A stretch of 64,000 bases of DNA, taken from a virus. Positions 14,417 to 24,068 of this stretch are shown here, piece by piece. Within the stretch, counting starts at the first letter, position 1. Each line of letters opens with the position of its first letter. The stretch spans positions 1 to 64,000 of the IMG/VR virus record IMGVR_UViG_3300020558_000217. One strand, given 5' to 3'. The notes beneath the pieces are model-generated. The model saw only the letters and a list, made by a program, of their open reading frames with translations, did not search any database and was not told where the DNA came from. The translations under genes were made by a program, and so were the position numbers.

Positions 14417-14445
14417 AGTATATAATAAAAAGCTGAGGGAATCAA
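14417..14445 (-). promoter_or_regulatory. Sigma70-type promoter for gp43
   Basis: Minus strand TTGATT (14445-14440), 17-base spacer, TATACT (14422-14417), 49 bases before the gp43 start. The -35 sits in the loop of the ftsH terminator hairpin and partly inside the ftsH stop codon. Confidence 0.65.
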
Positions 14446-14454
14446 TCCCTCAGC
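14427..14454 (-). terminator. Intrinsic terminator of ftsH
   Basis: GCTGAGGGA and TCCCTCAGC form a 9-bp stem with a 5-base loop, followed by UUUUU. The hairpin begins inside the last ftsH codons, so the stop codon is in the loop. Confidence 0.9.
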
Positions 14455-16232
14455 GGCACCTTTCCATCTAACAGATCTAGAATTTCTTGACCTGATAGTG
14501 TTTCGTATTCAAGCAAACCCTTAGCAAGAGTGTCTAACTGCTTTCTCTTTTTAGTTAGAATACCCTTGGCAGTAGCATATGCAGTATCAATAATTTTCTT
14601 TACTTCAAGATCAATAAGTCGCTGAGTTTCTTCAGAAACCTTTGGTCCATGAAACACATCTGAATTAGGTTCAGTATATGCTACATTACCTAATGGCGAA
14701 AATCCATACTGAGTAACCATAGCACGAGCGATCTTTGATGCCTGTTGAATATCAGCAGCTGCGCCAGAAGTAACATTCTCCTCGCCAAAAACTAACTCTT
14801 CTGCTGCACGGCCACCCATTGCCATTGCAAGATAAGCAATCATTTCCTTATAAGACTGAGAAATCTGATCGCGTTCTGGTAGAGACTGAACCATACCTAA
14901 CGCACGTCCACGAGGAATAATTGTTGCCTTATGAATAGGAACAGAACCTTCCATGTTCAGAGAAACAAGAGCATGTCCGCCTTCATGATAAGCAGTCATT
15001 TTCTTTTCTTCTTCAGACATAAGAAGAGATCTACGTTCTGCGCCCATAAGAATCTTGTCACGAGCATCATCAAATTCTTTTGCTGTAACAATTCTCTTAG
15101 AACGGCGAGCAGCGAGCAATGCTGCTTCATTCACAAGATTGGCCAGATCAGCGCCAGAGAAACCTGGTGTTCCCTTAGCAACAGTTCTAAGATCAACATC
15201 TGCTCCTAGTGGAACTGCTCTACTATGAACCTTTAGAATTTTCTCGCGCCCAACAATATCTGGATTAGATACAGTAACTTGTCGATCAAAACGGCCAGGA
15301 CGAAGCAAGGCAGGATCAAGCACATCCACACGATTTGTCGCAGCGATGATGATGATACCTTCGTTGTCATTAAAGCCATCCATTTCTACTAGTAGAGCGT
15401 TTAAAGTCTGCTCACGTTCATCGTTACCGCCACTAATGCCAGCATTACGATTACGTCCAACAGCATCGATTTCATCAATGAAAATAATGCAAGGAGCATT
15501 CTTCTTTGCCTGTTCAAACATATCACGCACACGAGATGCGCCAACGCCGACAAACATTTCTACGAAGTCAGATCCAGAAAGATGGAAGAAAGGAACACCA
15601 GCTTCACCAGCTACTGCTTTAGCGAGCAGAGTTTTACCAGTTCCTGGAGGACCAACAAGTAGAACGCCCTTGGGAATTTTACCGCCAACTGCTTGGAACT
15701 TATGTGGTGCTGCTAGAAATTCTACAACTTCTTCTAGATCTTCTTTTGCTTCATCTACACCAGCAACGTCATCGAACTTGACATTGATTTCTTCCTCAGA
15801 AAGCATCTTTGCTTTAGACTTGCCCATAGACAATGGACCACGTCCACCAATTCCAGAAGTTCTTCTTGATAACCAAATCCAAATACTAAAGAACAAAAGA
15901 ACAGGTAGTAGATTAATTGCTAGATTAGTGAAGAATCCTGTTTCTTCTGGTGGAGTTGCTGATACTTGTAACTTCTTACCTTTGATCTGTTCCATAAAAT
16001 TACCGACTGATGGAACATATGTACTAAATGTCCTGTTGTCAACAAAATGACCAGTAACTTGATTTCCTGCAATAGTGAGATCATGGACTCTTCCTTCATC
16101 GATTTGAGTAACAAGCTCGCTAAACCCAATTTCTCTTGAGTATGTTTTGTGAGAACTTTCATTCCACATAGAATATAGAAAAATTCCTGTTAATACAAAC
16201 AACACCCAAGGAGTAATTTTTCTCCAATCCAT
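14442..16232 (-). CDS. ftsH: FtsH-type ATP-dependent zinc metalloprotease
   Basis: A full-length (596-residue) membrane AAA+ protease that extracts and degrades misfolded or unassembled membrane proteins. Two membrane segments at about 8-22 and 103-121 flank a periplasmic domain. Walker A GPPGTGKT 194-201, pore FVG 227-229, Walker B IIFIDEID 249-256, [23 protein letters not shown] 298-317, zinc motif HEGGH 416-420 (usually HEAGH), with a downstream Asp in AAADIQQA as likely third ligand. It has its own promoter and terminator and neighbours endolysin, hsp20 and pmoC. A phage-borne FtsH is uncommon; it may maintain energy-coupling membrane complexes such as methane monooxygenase, which is inferred. 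Confidence 0.95.
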
Positions 16233-17560: not shown

Positions 17561-18322
17561 TTATTCTGTTAGAAGTCTAACGCCTTCACGACCAACTAGA
17601 GCATGAACACGCCCTAGGATCTGTAGAACAACTCCAAATACACCCAATGCCATCCAGCCGAAGAACACGAAGCCCCAATGAAGAGGAGCGACAAATAGTT
17701 CTTCCATGAACCAGAAAGTATGACCCCACTCGTTGAGACCAACGTTTGGAATGATCATAAATGGTCCAATGGCAACAATCAAGAATGCTAGGCTGTATCC
17801 ATGTGAGAAGTATGGAATACGAGTGCGAGCATAAAAGAAAGCACCAACAGCAATGATTGAGTAAATTGGGTATGACATATAGAACTCAATGATATGACTT
17901 GGAGTAAAGTCAGTATCACGAATTACAGTCATGTGCCATGTTCCATCCTGTTCAGTGAAAAAAGATGCGCCCCAGTAAATGGCGACGGCATACACAACAA
18001 GCCACTGAACTAAAGTAACTAGACGGCGCATTTCCTCGCGAGGAGTTACGCTGTCGATGGCTCGATCTCTAGTCTTCCAAAGATAACCAGCAAGTGCTAG
18101 ACCTGATACTAGCTCAAGCGGAATCTCTGTCCAAAGAATAGACATCCAATATGTCTGAAACTCTGGAGCAAATGAATCAAGTCCGGCCCTCCAGCCATAA
18201 ACCTGTTCATAGATACGAACAATGAGATAGAATGTGTTTAATAGGCCAAGGCCAATCCACATACCACGGAGATCGACGACATCTGCCTTTTCTGCAACTG
18301 CAGTAGTAGTTACTGTACTCAT
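17561..18322 (-). CDS. pmoC: Particulate methane monooxygenase subunit C (PmoC)
   Basis: A 253-residue integral membrane protein of the PmoC/AmoC family; pMMO oxidises methane to methanol. Six or so membrane helices are visible. Metal ligands known from M. capsulatus PmoC are all kept: D126, H130 and H143 (Cu C/Zn site; DGTWH and PSH) and N197, H201 and H215 (Cu D site; NEWGH and APLH). No pmoA or pmoB is in the window, so the product would have to join host PmoA/B. The first 25 residues are the variable region. It has its own hybrid early/late promoter, a leader hairpin and a GGAG box. PmoC in large freshwater phages has been reported; amoC is the alternative family name but sequence and context fit methanotrophy. 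Confidence 0.95.
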   Translation of the reverse strand: MSTVTTTAVAEKADVVDLRGMWIGLGLLNTFYLIVRIYEQVYGWRAGLDSFAPEFQTYWMSILWTEIPLELVSGLALAGYLWKTRDRAIDSVTPREEMRRLVTLVQWLVVYAVAIYWGASFFTEQDGTWHMTVIRDTDFTPSHIIEFYMSYPIYSIIAVGAFFYARTRIPYFSHGYSLAFLIVAIGPFMIIPNVGLNEWGHTFWFMEELFVAPLHWGFVFFGWMALGVFGVVLQILGRVHALVGREGVRLLTE

Positions 18323-18395: not shown

Positions 18396-18426
18396 TATTT
18401 ATACTATAACCCTATTTGAAAGTCAA
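18396..18426 (-). promoter_or_regulatory. Combined sigma70 and T4-type late promoter for pmoC
   Basis: Minus strand TTGACT (18426-18421), 17-base spacer, then TATAAATA (18403-18396). The last element fits both a sigma70 -10 (TATAAA) and the exact T4 late consensus, so pmoC could be read early by host polymerase and late by the phage-modified one. Confidence 0.7.
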
Positions 18427-18672: not shown

Positions 18673-18894
18673 TTAATGAAGTTTCTTACCAAAAGTCTCC
18701 TTTGCAACCACATATATTGACATAGTGTATCTGTCCATAATAAAAATAGGAGTCATGTTAGCAGCCTTAAAATCTTCAGCTGCTTCTAAAACTATTCTGA
18801 TGCCAGATTCTTCGTCTTCAGGAATATAATCGACAGCCTGTCTCAATACATCTTCTGGAATTTGAATCATGTTTTCTAAATTAGGTTTCCTCAT
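18673..18894 (-). CDS. Small protein of unknown function
   Basis: A 73-residue protein (MRKPNLENMIQIPEDV...) with alternating helix and strand and the end VVAKETFGKKLH. It overlaps its upstream neighbour by 14 bases. No family recognised. Confidence 0.6.
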   Translation of the reverse strand: MRKPNLENMIQIPEDVLRQAVDYIPEDEESGIRIVLEAAEDFKAANMTPIFIMDRYTMSIYVVAKETFGKKLH

Positions 18895-19231
18895 TTTTAT
18901 CTTTCTTGAAATAAGTCATATATTGTGTAGCATAATCGACGAACGACTTATATCCAAAAAATGTTATATACATTATATTTCTATACCATTCATATACAGG
19001 ATTTCTAGCCAACAAGTCTGACTCTTTTATTTTCTTTCTTCTGGGTCTTTTCTTTAATAAAGACTTATCTTCTATCATAGTCTCAAAAAACTTTATTCTT
19101 CCCTCTATGTAAAGTTTACCCTTCTCCACTTCAGGATCGTTTTTCAAAAGTTTAGAAACTCTCCTTAGATGCTTTCGATTTCTCATTGAATTGTGGAGTT
19201 GTTCAAGTAAGATTTCGTCAAGTTCATTCAT
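18881..19231 (-). CDS. Basic protein of unknown function after agt
   Basis: A 116-residue protein, strongly basic in the middle (KKRPRRKKIK near 68-77), with an aromatic C-terminal half (VYEWYRNIMYITFFGYKSF) that may touch membrane. The start at 19231 overlaps the glycosyltransferase stop by ATGA; a start 39 bases upstream would overlap it more. Its position in the lipid-remodelling pair suggests a link, but nothing in the sequence proves it. Confidence 0.6.
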   Translation of the reverse strand: MNELDEILLEQLHNSMRNRKHLRRVSKLLKNDPEVEKGKLYIEGRIKFFETMIEDKSLLKKRPRRKKIKESDLLARNPVYEWYRNIMYITFFGYKSFVDYATQYMTYFKKDKNEET

Positions 19232-20226
19232 ACCAGATTTTCTACAAACTGATCGGTTGCTGCTTCCCATGAGAAATGCTTTGCTCTTGCTACTGCATCT
19301 TCTCGTTTCAATAGAAAAGCACCTGTGATGGCAACTTCTAGATTATCCTTTGATAGATAACCAGATTTCGTGTCAATGATATATCTGTTCACTTCATTGT
19401 CAAATGCTGCTACAGGCAAACCACATGCCATTCCTTCAAGCACAACAAGACCGAATGTATCTGTCATGGATGGCCATGCAAAGACATCTTGTACCTGTAA
19501 TGTTCTAGCGATTTCTTCTGGTGTTTTTCTACCCAAAAAATAGGCATCTGGATATTTTGCTTTGTATTCTTCTAACTGTGGACCATCACCAATAATAAAC
19601 TTTACGATACTTTCATTCTTTATACTCAGAAATGCTTCTAGGTTTTTCTCGGCTGATACTCTACCGACATAGATAGCCCGAATGACCTTTTCTACTTCCA
19701 TCTTCTTCCAGTTTGGATCGGGTTTGAAAAGATCGGTATCAACACCACGAGACCATAACTTTAGGTTTTTGATACCCAGTGTATCACAGTAATCAACCAT
19801 GGCGGGGGTAGGAACCATAACACAATCGCTGTTTCTATGGAACCAACGAAAATACCGACCAGTAATTCTTGGTGGTATATAAGCATGTTCATATAGATAA
19901 TCTGGATACTTAGTATGGAACGATGTGGTATAGCGTCGTTTATACTTCTTGCAATAATATCTAGCGGCAAGACCTATGCTTCCTTCTGTTGCTATGTGAA
20001 TGTGGTTCGCATTCTTCACATATTCATCAGCGATACCCATAGGCAAAAGTGGCATATAAATGCCCGTTGATGGTTGTAGTGGAACTGTCACCTTGAACAT
20101 ACCAGGATGGACAACTTTTACATCATAACCACGTTTCTCAAGATGCTTGATTGTCGTCTTTAGTGTAGTGACAACTCCATTGATTTGTGGTTCCCAAGCA
20201 TCGGTAAAAATTGTAATGTTTGTCAT
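19228..20226 (-). CDS. agt: Agt-like GT4 glycosyltransferase (predicted glycolipid synthase)
   Basis: A 332-residue GT-B enzyme of family GT4. N-terminal acceptor domain: TDAWEPQINGVVTTL at 7-21, HIATEGSIGLAARYY, SFHTKYPDYLY. C-terminal donor domain: LWSRGVDTDLFKP, YVGRVSAEKNLEAF, GDGP, and DTFGLVVLEGMACGLPVAA with the EX7E-type glutamates. These blocks match alphaproteobacterial Agt, which moves glucose or glucuronic acid to diacylglycerol when phospholipids are replaced. It overlaps the plcP-like gene by 4 bases in the same order as the bacterial plcP-agt operon. A mannosyl- or LPS-glycosyltransferase is the alternative. Confidence 0.75.
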   Translation of the reverse strand: MTNITIFTDAWEPQINGVVTTLKTTIKHLEKRGYDVKVVHPGMFKVTVPLQPSTGIYMPLLPMGIADEYVKNANHIHIATEGSIGLAARYYCKKYKRRYTTSFHTKYPDYLYEHAYIPPRITGRYFRWFHRNSDCVMVPTPAMVDYCDTLGIKNLKLWSRGVDTDLFKPDPNWKKMEVEKVIRAIYVGRVSAEKNLEAFLSIKNESIVKFIIGDGPQLEEYKAKYPDAYFLGRKTPEEIARTLQVQDVFAWPSMTDTFGLVVLEGMACGLPVAAFDNEVNRYIIDTKSGYLSKDNLEVAITGAFLLKREDAVARAKHFSWEAATDQFVENLV

Positions 20227-20966
20227 CGTCTTATAATCTCAAACTTTCCATTATAGTGTTCAACAAGTGCGGTGCAGGATTCTACCCAATCGCCGCAGTT
20301 CATATACTCAACATCATCAAAAGAACATATATTAGCATGATGTATGTGACCGCAAACCACACCATCTACGCATCTCCTTTTGGCAGCATCGGCAACTACC
20401 TTTTCATAGTCACCAATAAAGTTTACTGCTTCCTTGACATTTTGTTTCGCCCATGCCGAAAGAGAGAAACCGTTGATGCCAAAATAATTATATATGTTCT
20501 GTAGATATCTGTTTAGATCAATCATTCTATCATACAACCAACCGCCGATAAGAGCAAGCCACTTGGCGTTTGTTGTAATCAGGTCAAACTGATCACCATG
20601 GATTACAAGATATCTCTTACCATTCTCTCCATTATGAATAGTTTCATTCACCAATTTGATATTACCCATTTCGGTGCCAGCATACTCACGAAGAAACTCG
20701 TCATGATTGCCAGTTACATAATAGACTTCTACTGATTTCTTTGATTGCTTTAGAAAGAACTGAATGACTTCGTTGTGCGCCTGAGGCCAATAGACTTTGT
20801 TTCGCATCATCCATCCGTCAATAATATCACCAACCAAGTAGTATCTATCGGCTTCGGTTTCTTTTAGAAACTCTAATAACTTTTCAGCATTAGAATATTT
20901 TGTACCCAAATGAACATCTGATATAAAGATAGCACGATACTTCTTTTTCTCTTTGTTCTTCAACAC
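20223..20966 (-). CDS. plcP: PlcP-like metallophosphoesterase (predicted phospholipase C)
   Basis: A 247-residue calcineurin-like phosphoesterase. Metal-site motifs are intact: D17/H19 in ISDVHLG, D47 in GDIID, GNHD 86-89, H123 in HGDQFD, CGHIHH 205-210. Blocks AWAKQNVKEAVNFIG and CGDWVESCTALVEH match the alphaproteobacterial group often annotated as UDP-2,3-diacylglucosamine hydrolase but shown in rhizobia to be PlcP, which cuts phospholipids to diacylglycerol under phosphate stress. GTG (20966) or TTG (20963) start behind AAAGGAG. A GATAAATA lies 26 bases upstream and may be a weak late promoter. LpxH activity is the alternative; the agt neighbour favours PlcP. Confidence 0.75.
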   Translation of the reverse strand: MLKNKEKKKYRAIFISDVHLGTKYSNAEKLLEFLKETEADRYYLVGDIIDGWMMRNKVYWPQAHNEVIQFFLKQSKKSVEVYYVTGNHDEFLREYAGTEMGNIKLVNETIHNGENGKRYLVIHGDQFDLITTNAKWLALIGGWLYDRMIDLNRYLQNIYNYFGINGFSLSAWAKQNVKEAVNFIGDYEKVVADAAKRRCVDGVVCGHIHHANICSFDDVEYMNCGDWVESCTALVEHYNGKFEIIRR

Positions 20967-20997
20967 CGCTCCTTTGGTTAGAAGGCAAGACTATTTA

Positions 20998-21363
20998 TCA
21001 TATCATGTCCATCGTAAAAATAGCACGAATGTATTTTTGTGGATCAAATTCAATCCTTCTACGAGCAAATACAACAAATCCAAGGTCATCTCCAGTCATT
21101 ACTTCTCTCATAGATTTGCCCGTCGTGTATACATCGTCGACAACTAATCGTAATGGAACTCCTGGTGTAATGTACTTTTCCAACGCTAAAGCCAATTTAA
21201 CGCCGCCACGAGGAATACCATAAACACTGCCAAAACGAGTACGCTCATGAATGATCCTTGCTAAACAATCCCAATCTCCATCAGTCAAAGCATCGCATTC
21301 AATTTTCCAATTTAACTCATGTCCAGCATGAGATATAAAGTTTCCTTCTTGAAATAAATTCAT
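20998..21363 (-). CDS. Type I phosphoribosyltransferase-like protein
   Basis: A 121-residue short PRTase-fold protein. The PRPP-binding motif LRLVVDDVYTTGKSM is at 76-90, and GIPRGGVKLA near 49-58 is the PPi loop region. Such enzymes join a base to PRPP (nucleotide salvage) or act as regulators. It is shorter than orotate or hypoxanthine PRTases and the substrate hood is not identifiable. It overlaps the upstream gene by 4 bases, 31 bases before the plcP-like gene. Confidence 0.75.
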   Translation of the reverse strand: MNLFQEGNFISHAGHELNWKIECDALTDGDWDCLARIIHERTRFGSVYGIPRGGVKLALALEKYITPGVPLRLVVDDVYTTGKSMREVMTGDDLGFVVFARRRIEFDPQKYIRAIFTMDMI

Positions 21364-22231: not shown

Positions 22232-22413
22232 GTCTCTTTCCATTCAAGCATGTTTTTCATATCATTGAGGCGCTGGTCTCTCATTGCTTCGTCTTTTTCA
22301 GATAGAACCTTTTCTAGAAGGCCAAAAAGGAATAGACAGTTCATCTTGTTTTCAACGTTTTCTTTTGGCACATCGTTGATTATAGCGTTTAGTTTTTCGT
22401 TCTGTAAAATCAT
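22228..22413 (-). CDS. Small helical protein of unknown function
   Basis: A 61-residue helical protein (MILQNEKLNAIINDV...LEWKET) overlapping the acyl-CoA dehydrogenase stop by 4 bases. No family recognised. Confidence 0.6.
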   Translation of the reverse strand: MILQNEKLNAIINDVPKENVENKMNCLFLFGLLEKVLSEKDEAMRDQRLNDMKNMLEWKET

Positions 22414-24068
22414 AGTTCTGCCCTCATCATTGTATCCGAACCGAAACGGATACGCTTTAGTAGAAAACTCGTTTCTGGTAGAATGCGTTCCATAAAATAT
22501 TCTGCGGTATTGTGTCTGTCCTTATCGTCAGTAGCAAGACAGATACGAATATGTGCCATGCCAAGTAATACTAATCCAAACATTTTCATGTAGTCGTAGG
22601 AAGCGCCACCAGCATTATTAGGATTTTTCATGCCATTTTCTACCAACCATTCTGTTGCTTGCTTTAGTTCACTTACTGCCTGTGTCATTGGCTGAACAAT
22701 GTCATTGATCTGCTTATCGTAAGAACTGGTCAAGAATGCTTCGCTATCATTGAAGAACCTTGTAATAGCACGACCCATATCCTTTGGCAACTTACGACCA
22801 ATCAAGTCTAGTGCCTGAATGCCATTAGCGCCTTCATAGATTTGACAGATACGAGCGTCACGAACAATCTGCTCCATACCCCATTCTTTGATGTATCCAT
22901 GACCACCGAAGACCTGTTGCGCTTTTACAGCATTCTCAAAACCATAATCTGTTAGAACGCCTTTGAGAACTGGAGTCATTAGACCAAGACGATCCTGTGC
23001 TTCTTGTGATTTATCATCGCAAAGCATTGCCGCTTCTAGAACAAGAAGTCGTCCAGCTTCATTGATACATTTGATATCCATAAGCATACGGCGAACGTCA
23101 GGATGTTCTATGATAGCAACAGACTTACCTTTGGGATCTGTAATCTTGGCACTTTGAATACGATCTTTGGCATAAGCAAGAGCATTTTGATATGCCAACT
23201 CCGATTGCGATAGACCTTGAACAGCAACACCAAGGCGTGCCTCATTCATCATAATGAACATGGCATTTAGACCCTTGCATCGTTCACCAACAAGATAACC
23301 AATAGCACCATCATAGTTCATCACGCAAGTTGGCGAACCATGAATGCCCATCTTTTCTTCAATAGATCCACAAGACACATTATTTTGTTTCTCTCTCCAA
23401 AGTTTTGGGACCACAAACATACTAATGCCTTTGACGCCTTCTGGATCTCCCTCAATACGAGCAAGAACAAGATGAACGATATTATCTGCTAGATCATGCT
23501 CACCACATGAAATGAAAATCTTTTGGCCTGTGATATAAAATTCATCTTCTAAAAGAGCAGGAGTAGCCTTTGTCTTAATCAAACCAAGATCAGTTCCACA
23601 ATGCGGTTCTGTCAGGTTCATTGTGCCTGTCCATTCACCAGATGCCATCTTGGGAATGAAATGTTGCTTCTGTCCTTCTGTTGCAACTTCTAATAGTGCT
23701 TGAATATTTCCACGAGTAAGGCCGGGCAAAAGAGAGAAAGCTATATTAGACGAGGATACAAACTCGTTTACCGCAGCCGAAAGTGTATATGGTAGACCTT
23801 GGCCACCATATTGTTCAGGAACTGATAAACCAAGCCAACCACCTTCTTTGAATTTCTTCCACGGTTCATGGAAAACTGCTGGTACAATAACATCGTCAAA
23901 TACGCATCTTTCACAACCAAGTTTATCTCCAGACTGATTAGTAGGAGCAATAACTTCTTCGCATAGTTTTGCTGCTTCGGTTAGAATCGGCTCTGTAAGT
24001 TCATTGTCGAACTTTAGAACATCACGAAGAAGAAACGTTGTCGATACTACTGGTGCTGTGTATTTCAT
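22410..24068 (-). CDS. Acyl-CoA dehydrogenase (long FadE/DmdC-like)
   Basis: A 552-residue flavoprotein that makes the alpha-beta double bond in acyl-CoA esters. Seen: SVPEQYGGQGLP near 82, MNLTEPHCGTDLG near 150-162 (FAD/substrate loop), YITGQKIFISCGEHD, ARLGVAVQGLSQSELAYQNA, QVFGGHGYIKEWGMEQIVRD, and QIYEGANGIQALDLIGRKL, with the probable catalytic Glu in YEG. The length and C-terminal extension fit the long ACAD group that includes 3-methylthiopropanoyl-CoA dehydrogenase. It is complete and sits among tiny phage genes, so it is probably an auxiliary metabolic gene. Substrate cannot be read from sequence. Confidence 0.9.
   Translation of the reverse strand: MKYTAPVVSTTFLLRDVLKFDNELTEPILTEAAKLCEEVIAPTNQSGDKLGCERCVFDDVIVPAVFHEPWKKFKEGGWLGLSVPEQYGGQGLPYTLSAAVNEFVSSSNIAFSLLPGLTRGNIQALLEVATEGQKQHFIPKMASGEWTGTMNLTEPHCGTDLGLIKTKATPALLEDEFYITGQKIFISCGEHDLADNIVHLVLARIEGDPEGVKGISMFVVPKLWREKQNNVSCGSIEEKMGIHGSPTCVMNYDGAIGYLVGERCKGLNAMFIMMNEARLGVAVQGLSQSELAYQNALAYAKDRIQSAKITDPKGKSVAIIEHPDVRRMLMDIKCINEAGRLLVLEAAMLCDDKSQEAQDRLGLMTPVLKGVLTDYGFENAVKAQQVFGGHGYIKEWGMEQIVRDARICQIYEGANGIQALDLIGRKLPKDMGRAITRFFNDSEAFLTSSYDKQINDIVQPMTQAVSELKQATEWLVENGMKNPNNAGGASYDYMKMFGLVLLGMAHIRICLATDDKDRHNTAEYFMERILPETSFLLKRIRFGSDTMMRAEL

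Follow-up and report, generated by a model that had tools for sequence, protein, structure and literature searches.

The plcP-agt gene pair has been described in the methanotroph Methylosinus trichosporium OB3b, where it is genetically required for glucuronosyl-diacylglycerol and aids growth under phosphate limitation; the pair is present in every type II methanotroph (PMC9239053). The second enzyme, Agt, was studied by mutagenesis in SAR11 (GTcp of Pelagibacter HTCC7211), which identified His104 and Asp256 as catalytic residues, the latter being unusual, as other GT4 enzymes have Glu at that place. In GTcp, diacylglycerol is bound by Arg163 and Trp320, while the UDP-sugar residues are Gly16, Gly82, Gly85, Arg190, Lys195, Thr257, Phe258, Gly259 and Glu264 (PMC8231724). 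On the phage side, pmoC-phages of freshwater lakes were described by Chen et al. 2020 (PMC7674155).

No description of the plcP-agt pair in phages was found in the open-licence literature searched; the author of a preliminary description of the DNA analysed here also knew of no phage version. Viral surveys list 'lpxH' genes (PMC9611531, PMC10653327), some of which may encode PlcP.

The plcP-agt locus and its phage

The window, i.e. the whole stretch of 64,000 nucleotides that was analysed, belongs to a virus record of 105.6 kb (IMGVR_UViG_3300020558_000217). The following features are all located on its minus strand:

17561..18322, minus strand: pmoC, particulate methane monooxygenase subunit C (Pfam AmoC, E 1e-108)
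18881..19231, minus strand: third gene, 116 aa, of no known family (no Pfam match), with an ATGA overlapping the agt stop
19228..20226, minus strand: agt, GT4 glycosyltransferase, predicted diacylglycerol glycosyltransferase (intact ORF, 332 aa; Pfam Glyco_transf_4/Glycos_transf_1, E 7e-18 / 6e-17)
20223..20226, minus strand: ATGA stop/start overlap of plcP and agt in the sequence (4 bp), putative translational coupling
20223..20966, minus strand: plcP-like metallophosphoesterase, predicted Mn-dependent phospholipase C (intact ORF, 247 aa from GTG; Pfam Metallophos, E 9e-14)
20992..20999, minus strand: GATAAATA, T4-type late-promoter-like -10 element, 33 nt upstream of the esterase GTG

The preliminary description had proposed two overlapping ORFs encoding a PlcP-type esterase and an Agt-type GT4 transferase, joined by ATGA in the order of the bacterial operon. 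Pfam, tree, genome-wide best matches and residue checks (see below) bore out the first part of this proposal, and the order and overlap are those of most of the 37 bacterial loci with both proteins. The ATGA overlap is also common to 29 of the 48 distinct phage pairs. The esterase start may be either GTG 20966 or TTG 20963, which are equally likely; the TTG is better spaced from AAAGGAG than the GTG and lines up with the ATG of a relative.

The preliminary description had not included the third gene, whose ORF was first listed as 129 aa, overlapping agt. As its homologues match from residue 14 of this longer ORF, an ATG within ATGA, the true start is probably 19231. Homologues of this gene directly follow agt in part of the clade, and plcP, agt and the third gene form a three-gene unit.

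The genes surrounding this unit include T4-like replication genes (UvsX, DnaB-like helicase, DNA polymerase, gp32 and DNA ligase) as well as genes for FtsH, HSP20, acyl-CoA dehydrogenase and PmoC, identified with Pfam. The 105.6-kb record is a fragment in which the T4-type major capsid protein gp23 is absent; gp23 is encoded in 11 of the 13 module-carrying records tested, near-complete relatives included. The window phage is T4-like and bears a stand-alone pmoC, i.e. it is a pmoC-phage. Its PmoC shares 83% identity with that of Methylocystis silviterrae, therefore its host is probably a type II methanotroph. Among 22 records carrying the phage plcP/agt family, pmoC was found in 9, including those of 162 and 165 kb, and it is missing from the more distant ones, so the pair is not confined to phages of methanotrophs.

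Three other proteins encoded nearby on the minus strand deserve mention. The acyl-CoA dehydrogenase (22410-24068, 552 aa) is full-length, and a partial one was reported for related Lake Mendota phages by Chen et al. (PMC7674155). FtsH protease, encoded near pmoC and HSP20, is also full-length (14442-16232, 596 aa) and exceeds the FtsH family cut-off. Directly upstream of plcP, positions 20998-21363 encode a 121-aa protein with a phosphoribosyltransferase-like VVDDVYTTGKS motif and no Pfam match.

Identity of the two enzymes

The metal-ligand motifs of the window esterase (D16xH18, GD46, GN86H87D88, H122 and GH206xH208) are invariant in 18 phage homologues, and the two-metal motif set of calcineurin-like metallophosphoesterases is complete. 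The preliminary description had set PlcP and Agt against LpxH and the LPS transferases, and in our tree, which included LpxH of E. coli and Pseudomonas, the esterase did not cluster with LpxH. Every phage sequence is placed among the bacterial PlcPs, and a branch with a support of 100 sets LpxH apart from them. Against two LpxH models the window esterase scored 51.2 bits (cut-off 190.35) and 55.9 bits (cut-off 134), much like bacterial PlcPs (about 40-43 bits), whereas the true LpxH of the same Pseudomonas genomes scored about 330 bits. PlcP was the sole significant esterase match in the genomes of Methylocystis, Bradyrhizobium, Pseudomonas and Methylobacterium, at 51-55% identity, and overall identity to bacterial PlcP amounts to 50-55%. 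The family cut-offs, the tree split and the genome-wide matches rule out LpxH as the identity of this protein. Its gene adjoins that of a predicted diacylglycerol glycosyltransferase, a trait that is common, though not universal, for bacterial PlcP.

Predicted structures of the two proteins (pLDDT 81 and 89) show the expected LpxH-type phosphoesterase and GT-B folds. The solved fold nearest to the AlphaFold model of the esterase is LpxH, and matches of the glycosyltransferase model include MshA, BshA and PimA; the models fit both folds but fail to tell PlcP from LpxH. On the strength of the sequence comparisons it is near certain that the esterase is a PlcP-type metallophosphoesterase, with the enzymatic activity predicted from this assignment.

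In annotated records phage relatives of PlcP are labelled LpxH (Mosig, S-SRM01). The protein encoded by L116 (MT647606.1, 6010-6747) is annotated as UDP-2,3-diacylglucosamine hydrolase/diphosphatase, yet falls on the PlcP side of the tree. The same class of annotation was given to that of L117 (MW015081.1, 4995-5699), which is placed on the PlcP side as well, on a very long branch.

The window transferase keeps all 13 of the checked residues essential in GTcp, including Asp256, His104 and Trp320; nine of them have the identical residue number, while Arg160 corresponds to R163 of GTcp. These residues are nearly invariant across 36 phage and 30 bacterial sequences. In a Methylocystis genome the top match to the window transferase is the gene that immediately follows plcP (E 2e-63, with 7e-6 for the second-best GT4), and identity to bacterial Agt is about 36-45%. 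As regards the LPS enzymes, the window transferase groups with plcP-linked Agt, apart from WaaG and WaaB of E. coli, and the phage Agts form a single clade (SH-aLRT 97). The root separating all Agts from other GT4 enzymes is weak (SH-aLRT 39), hence the Agt identity is based mainly on the genome-wide best matches and the residues. These make it near certain that the window GT4 is Agt, for which transfer of a sugar to diacylglycerol is predicted.

Spread, linkage to pstS and regulation

The preliminary description had called for a search for the pair in other phage genomes, and this proved fruitful. In IMG/VR the esterase is encoded at 62 loci and the glycosyltransferase at 61, from which 48 distinct phage protein pairs were obtained, 45 of them adjacent. 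With a profile scan, genes for PlcP relatives were detected in at least 594 viral stretches. Among 175 distinct viral plcP loci, agt is found in 106 and a GT2 transferase in 29; another 38 gave no match to agt, the two GT2 probes, pstS or the dehydrogenase, in some cases because the contigs were cut. These 38 loci, together with the layout of L046 (5974-7816), in which plcP is followed by a 356-aa gene that looks by eye like an amidinotransferase (no Pfam match) and no glycosyltransferase, indicate that not every phage PlcP would take part in a lipid swap. In L060 (5279-6717) plcP overlaps by ATGA with a gene for a GT2 glycosyltransferase, which is present in place of Agt. One presumed phage locus (L118, MT836169.1, 'Bacteriophage sp.') with plcP followed by a glycosyltransferase gene was rejected as a bacterial contig, because inspection of its neighbours showed tyrosyl-tRNA synthetase, polyphosphate kinase and exopolyphosphatase.

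The dN/dS ratio of the phage pair is about 0.03-0.18, and its GC content (0.38-0.40) matches that of the phage (Methylocystis, 0.64). So many distinct pairs and so low a ratio show that the arrangement is not due to chance. Recent theft of the genes from a host was ruled out by the low identity to bacterial copies, the phage-like GC content and the single clade of phage Agts. The low dN/dS, the GC content and the identities given above rather indicate that phages have long had these genes and that purifying selection acts on them. Together with the number of distinct pairs, the single Agt clade and the many stretches with PlcP relatives, they show a wide and ancient occurrence in T4-like phages.

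The suggestion of the preliminary description that the pair serves phosphate supply gains independent support from pstS, which lies next to plcP(-agt) in several phages. In some phages the module is extended to pstS-plcP-agt-nucleotide-sugar dehydrogenase. Such a row is present in a 218-kb T4-like phage (L411, 4956-8424), where the successive junctions are a gap of about 2 bp, an overlap and a gap of about 10 bp. UDP-glucuronate is a known donor for Agt, and the dehydrogenase might supply it; this suggestion is tentative, as the protein is short and scores below the cut-off of its model. A 188-kb phage (L261) has the order pstS-porin-plcP-agt-DNA polymerase, its porin matching Porin_5 and, below the cut-off, a phosphate-selective porin. 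The order is plcP-agt-pstS in L277, pstS lies upstream of plcP-agt in L305, and L271 (2969-5462) carries pstS-plcP-GT2, with a GT2 glycosyltransferase replacing Agt. In the cultured pelagiphage Mosig (Pelagibacter phage) a divergent pstS lies beside plcP. Overall, pstS is flanked by plcP or agt in 13 of the 74 distinct phage loci that contain it. No pstS was detected in the searched records of the window phage and its pmoC-phage relatives. The phoH gene was present in 9 of 19 pmoC-phage records, but as it is common in T4-like phages, we did not count it as evidence.

Upstream of plcP, within 100 bp, NATAAATA was found in 19 of 40 phage loci (related loci among these are not independent, and the bacterial contig L118 is included), while random windows of the same loci gave a mean of 0.68 and, over 500 draws, never more than 4. 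The motif usually lies 32-36 nt from plcP in the core clade. We take NATAAATA to resemble the T4 late promoter TATAAATA, and its enrichment suggests that plcP-agt is expressed late in infection. TATAAATA itself occurs about 75 nt upstream of pmoC (window 18396-18403, minus strand), which suggests that pmoC too is under a T4-type late promoter. The PHO-box-like sites that the preliminary description had thought worth looking for were not found upstream of the window plcP, where the best match covered 8 of 14 positions; relatives gave scattered weak matches only, the best of them, 11 of 14, in one relative. Control of the phage pair by a PHO box was thus rejected for the upstream regions searched.

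Possible roles of lipid remodelling during infection

Enzyme identities, operon order, conservation, purifying selection, spread among phages and, in some of them, linkage to pstS are established at the level of sequence. Based on these observations, we suggest, with a probability of roughly 0.7, that the phage pair is a two-step membrane lipid remodelling unit that would supply phosphate; its activity, late expression and phosphate benefit are predicted. PlcP would cut the phosphorylated head group off host phospholipids, leaving diacylglycerol, to which Agt would transfer glucose, galactose or glucuronic acid, the donor being a UDP-sugar. Host membranes would thus stay whole as glycolipid, while the phosphorus of their phospholipids would be freed as phosphorylated head groups, to be broken down by host enzymes and drawn into viral nucleotide synthesis. 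The ATGA overlap may couple both enzymes, so that bilayer-destabilising diacylglycerol would not build up, and with a late-type promoter the pair would be switched on while the phage replicates and assembles, without a need for the host PhoB system.

Lipid remodelling as such is very probable for the phage pair, and phosphate supply as its main benefit is probable. With about 2e7 phospholipids in a cell of the size of E. coli and 3.4e5 phosphates in each 170-kb genome, complete replacement could cover the phosphate of roughly 60 genomes; methanotrophs that have intracytoplasmic membranes hold more phospholipid than such a cell. A point against phosphate supply is that the products of PlcP are phosphoethanolamine, glycerol phosphate and similar compounds instead of free phosphate, and the analysis identified no phage phosphatase acting on these head groups. 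Further points against it are that pstS was not detected in the searched records of the window phage and its pmoC-phage relatives, that no PHO box was found upstream of the window plcP, and that some phage plcP loci lack a glycosyltransferase gene.

The main alternative assumes the same lipid swap, with phosphate release as a by-product and the altered surface or membrane as the benefit, either because fewer receptors or a changed charge would block superinfection, or because the new membrane would suit pMMO activity or late assembly. The late-type promoter motif would fit a role once DNA synthesis is under way, and the window pair lies near other membrane-protein genes (pmoC, ftsH). Moreover, an effect of lipid composition on phage attachment is reported for Ruegeria and proposed for Pseudomonas (PMC9938194, PMC9804370). 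On the other hand, the repeated linkage of plcP(-agt) with pstS points to phosphorus, and the substrates of PlcP and Agt are inner-membrane lipid precursors. We therefore consider a surface or membrane benefit unlikely, though it is the strongest competitor of phosphate supply.

It is far less probable that PlcP weakens the membrane as a lysis factor, with Agt limiting or timing the damage. Phospholipase C yields diacylglycerol, which destabilises bilayers, and the late-type motif upstream of plcP would suit such a function, but a coupled and conserved Agt would cancel the damage, most phage plcP genes are paired with a glycosyltransferase gene, some are linked to pstS, and the same operon is non-lytic in bacteria. 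DNA- and virion-modifying glycosyltransferases are common in T4-like phages, yet the idea that the targets of this GT4 are phage DNA or virion proteins, in the manner of the T4 alpha-glucosyltransferase (also named agt), its linkage to plcP being incidental, is hardly credible given residues and best matches that identify a diacylglycerol transferase, a plcP coupling kept over 48 distinct pairs, and the GT2 transferases adjoining plcP in other phages, as if plcP needed some lipid glycosyltransferase. An equally negligible chance is left to an LpxH-like lipid A enzyme acting with a GT4 LPS transferase on lipopolysaccharide, which would agree with the annotation of phage copies and with the nearest solved fold but is refuted in sequence by PlcP-like scores (51-56 bits), by the tree split, by genomes in which PlcP alone was matched and by the diacylglycerol-transferase residues of the GT.

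Phosphate supply from membrane lipid would matter beyond this phage. Phage production in lakes and oceans is considered to be limited by phosphate, and the known phage phosphate genes act on uptake; our finding points to phages drawing on the intracellular phospholipid pool. We are inclined to think that in many aquatic T4-like phages an ancient, phage-adapted plcP-agt module makes the membrane of the infected cell a phosphate reserve for viral DNA and leaves glycolipid-rich host membranes, and that much viral 'lpxH' is in fact plcP. This would account, in a way open to testing, for a gene that hundreds of viral contigs contain and that the annotated phage records encountered in this analysis assign to LpxH, an enzyme of lipid A synthesis. 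It also predicts glucosyl- or glucuronosyl-diacylglycerol as the lipid signature of infected cells and would tie phages of methane oxidisers to phosphorus cycling.

The window phage resembles the pmoC-phages of PMC7674155 in being a myovirus relative with a stand-alone pmoC, HSP20, acyl-CoA dehydrogenase and alphaproteobacterial methanotroph hosts; the main text of that paper mentions neither PlcP and Agt nor glycosyltransferases, phosphoesterases, lipids or phosphate. LpxH (UDP-2,3-diacylglucosamine diphosphatase) has the metallophosphoesterase fold and metal motifs in common with the window esterase but is only about 24% identical to it and forms a separate clade, and the esterase remains below the LpxH family cut-offs. 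GTcp (PMC8231724) and the window Agt are alike in length (334 versus 332 aa), in the GRVxxEKN and xPSxTDTFG motifs and in Asp256/His104/Arg163/Trp320; they differ in that the phage protein, whose activity is predicted, has W for the first F of FPSxTDTFG.

Gene order, ATGA overlap, families and catalytic residues are shared with the plcP-agt operon of type II methanotrophs and rhizobia (Methylosinus trichosporium OB3b; Agrobacterium Agt atu2297). In contrast to these operons, with which identity is 50-55% for PlcP and about 36-45% for Agt, the copy analysed here is borne by a phage and preceded by a T4-type late promoter motif, no PHO box having been found, and the phage Agts belong to a separate clade. 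With the phage-borne phosphate genes pstS and phoH, also of T4-like phages, the pair would share the acquisition of phosphorus by the phage. However, unlike them, plcP-agt would target not uptake from outside but phosphorus that is already within the cell, in its membrane lipid.
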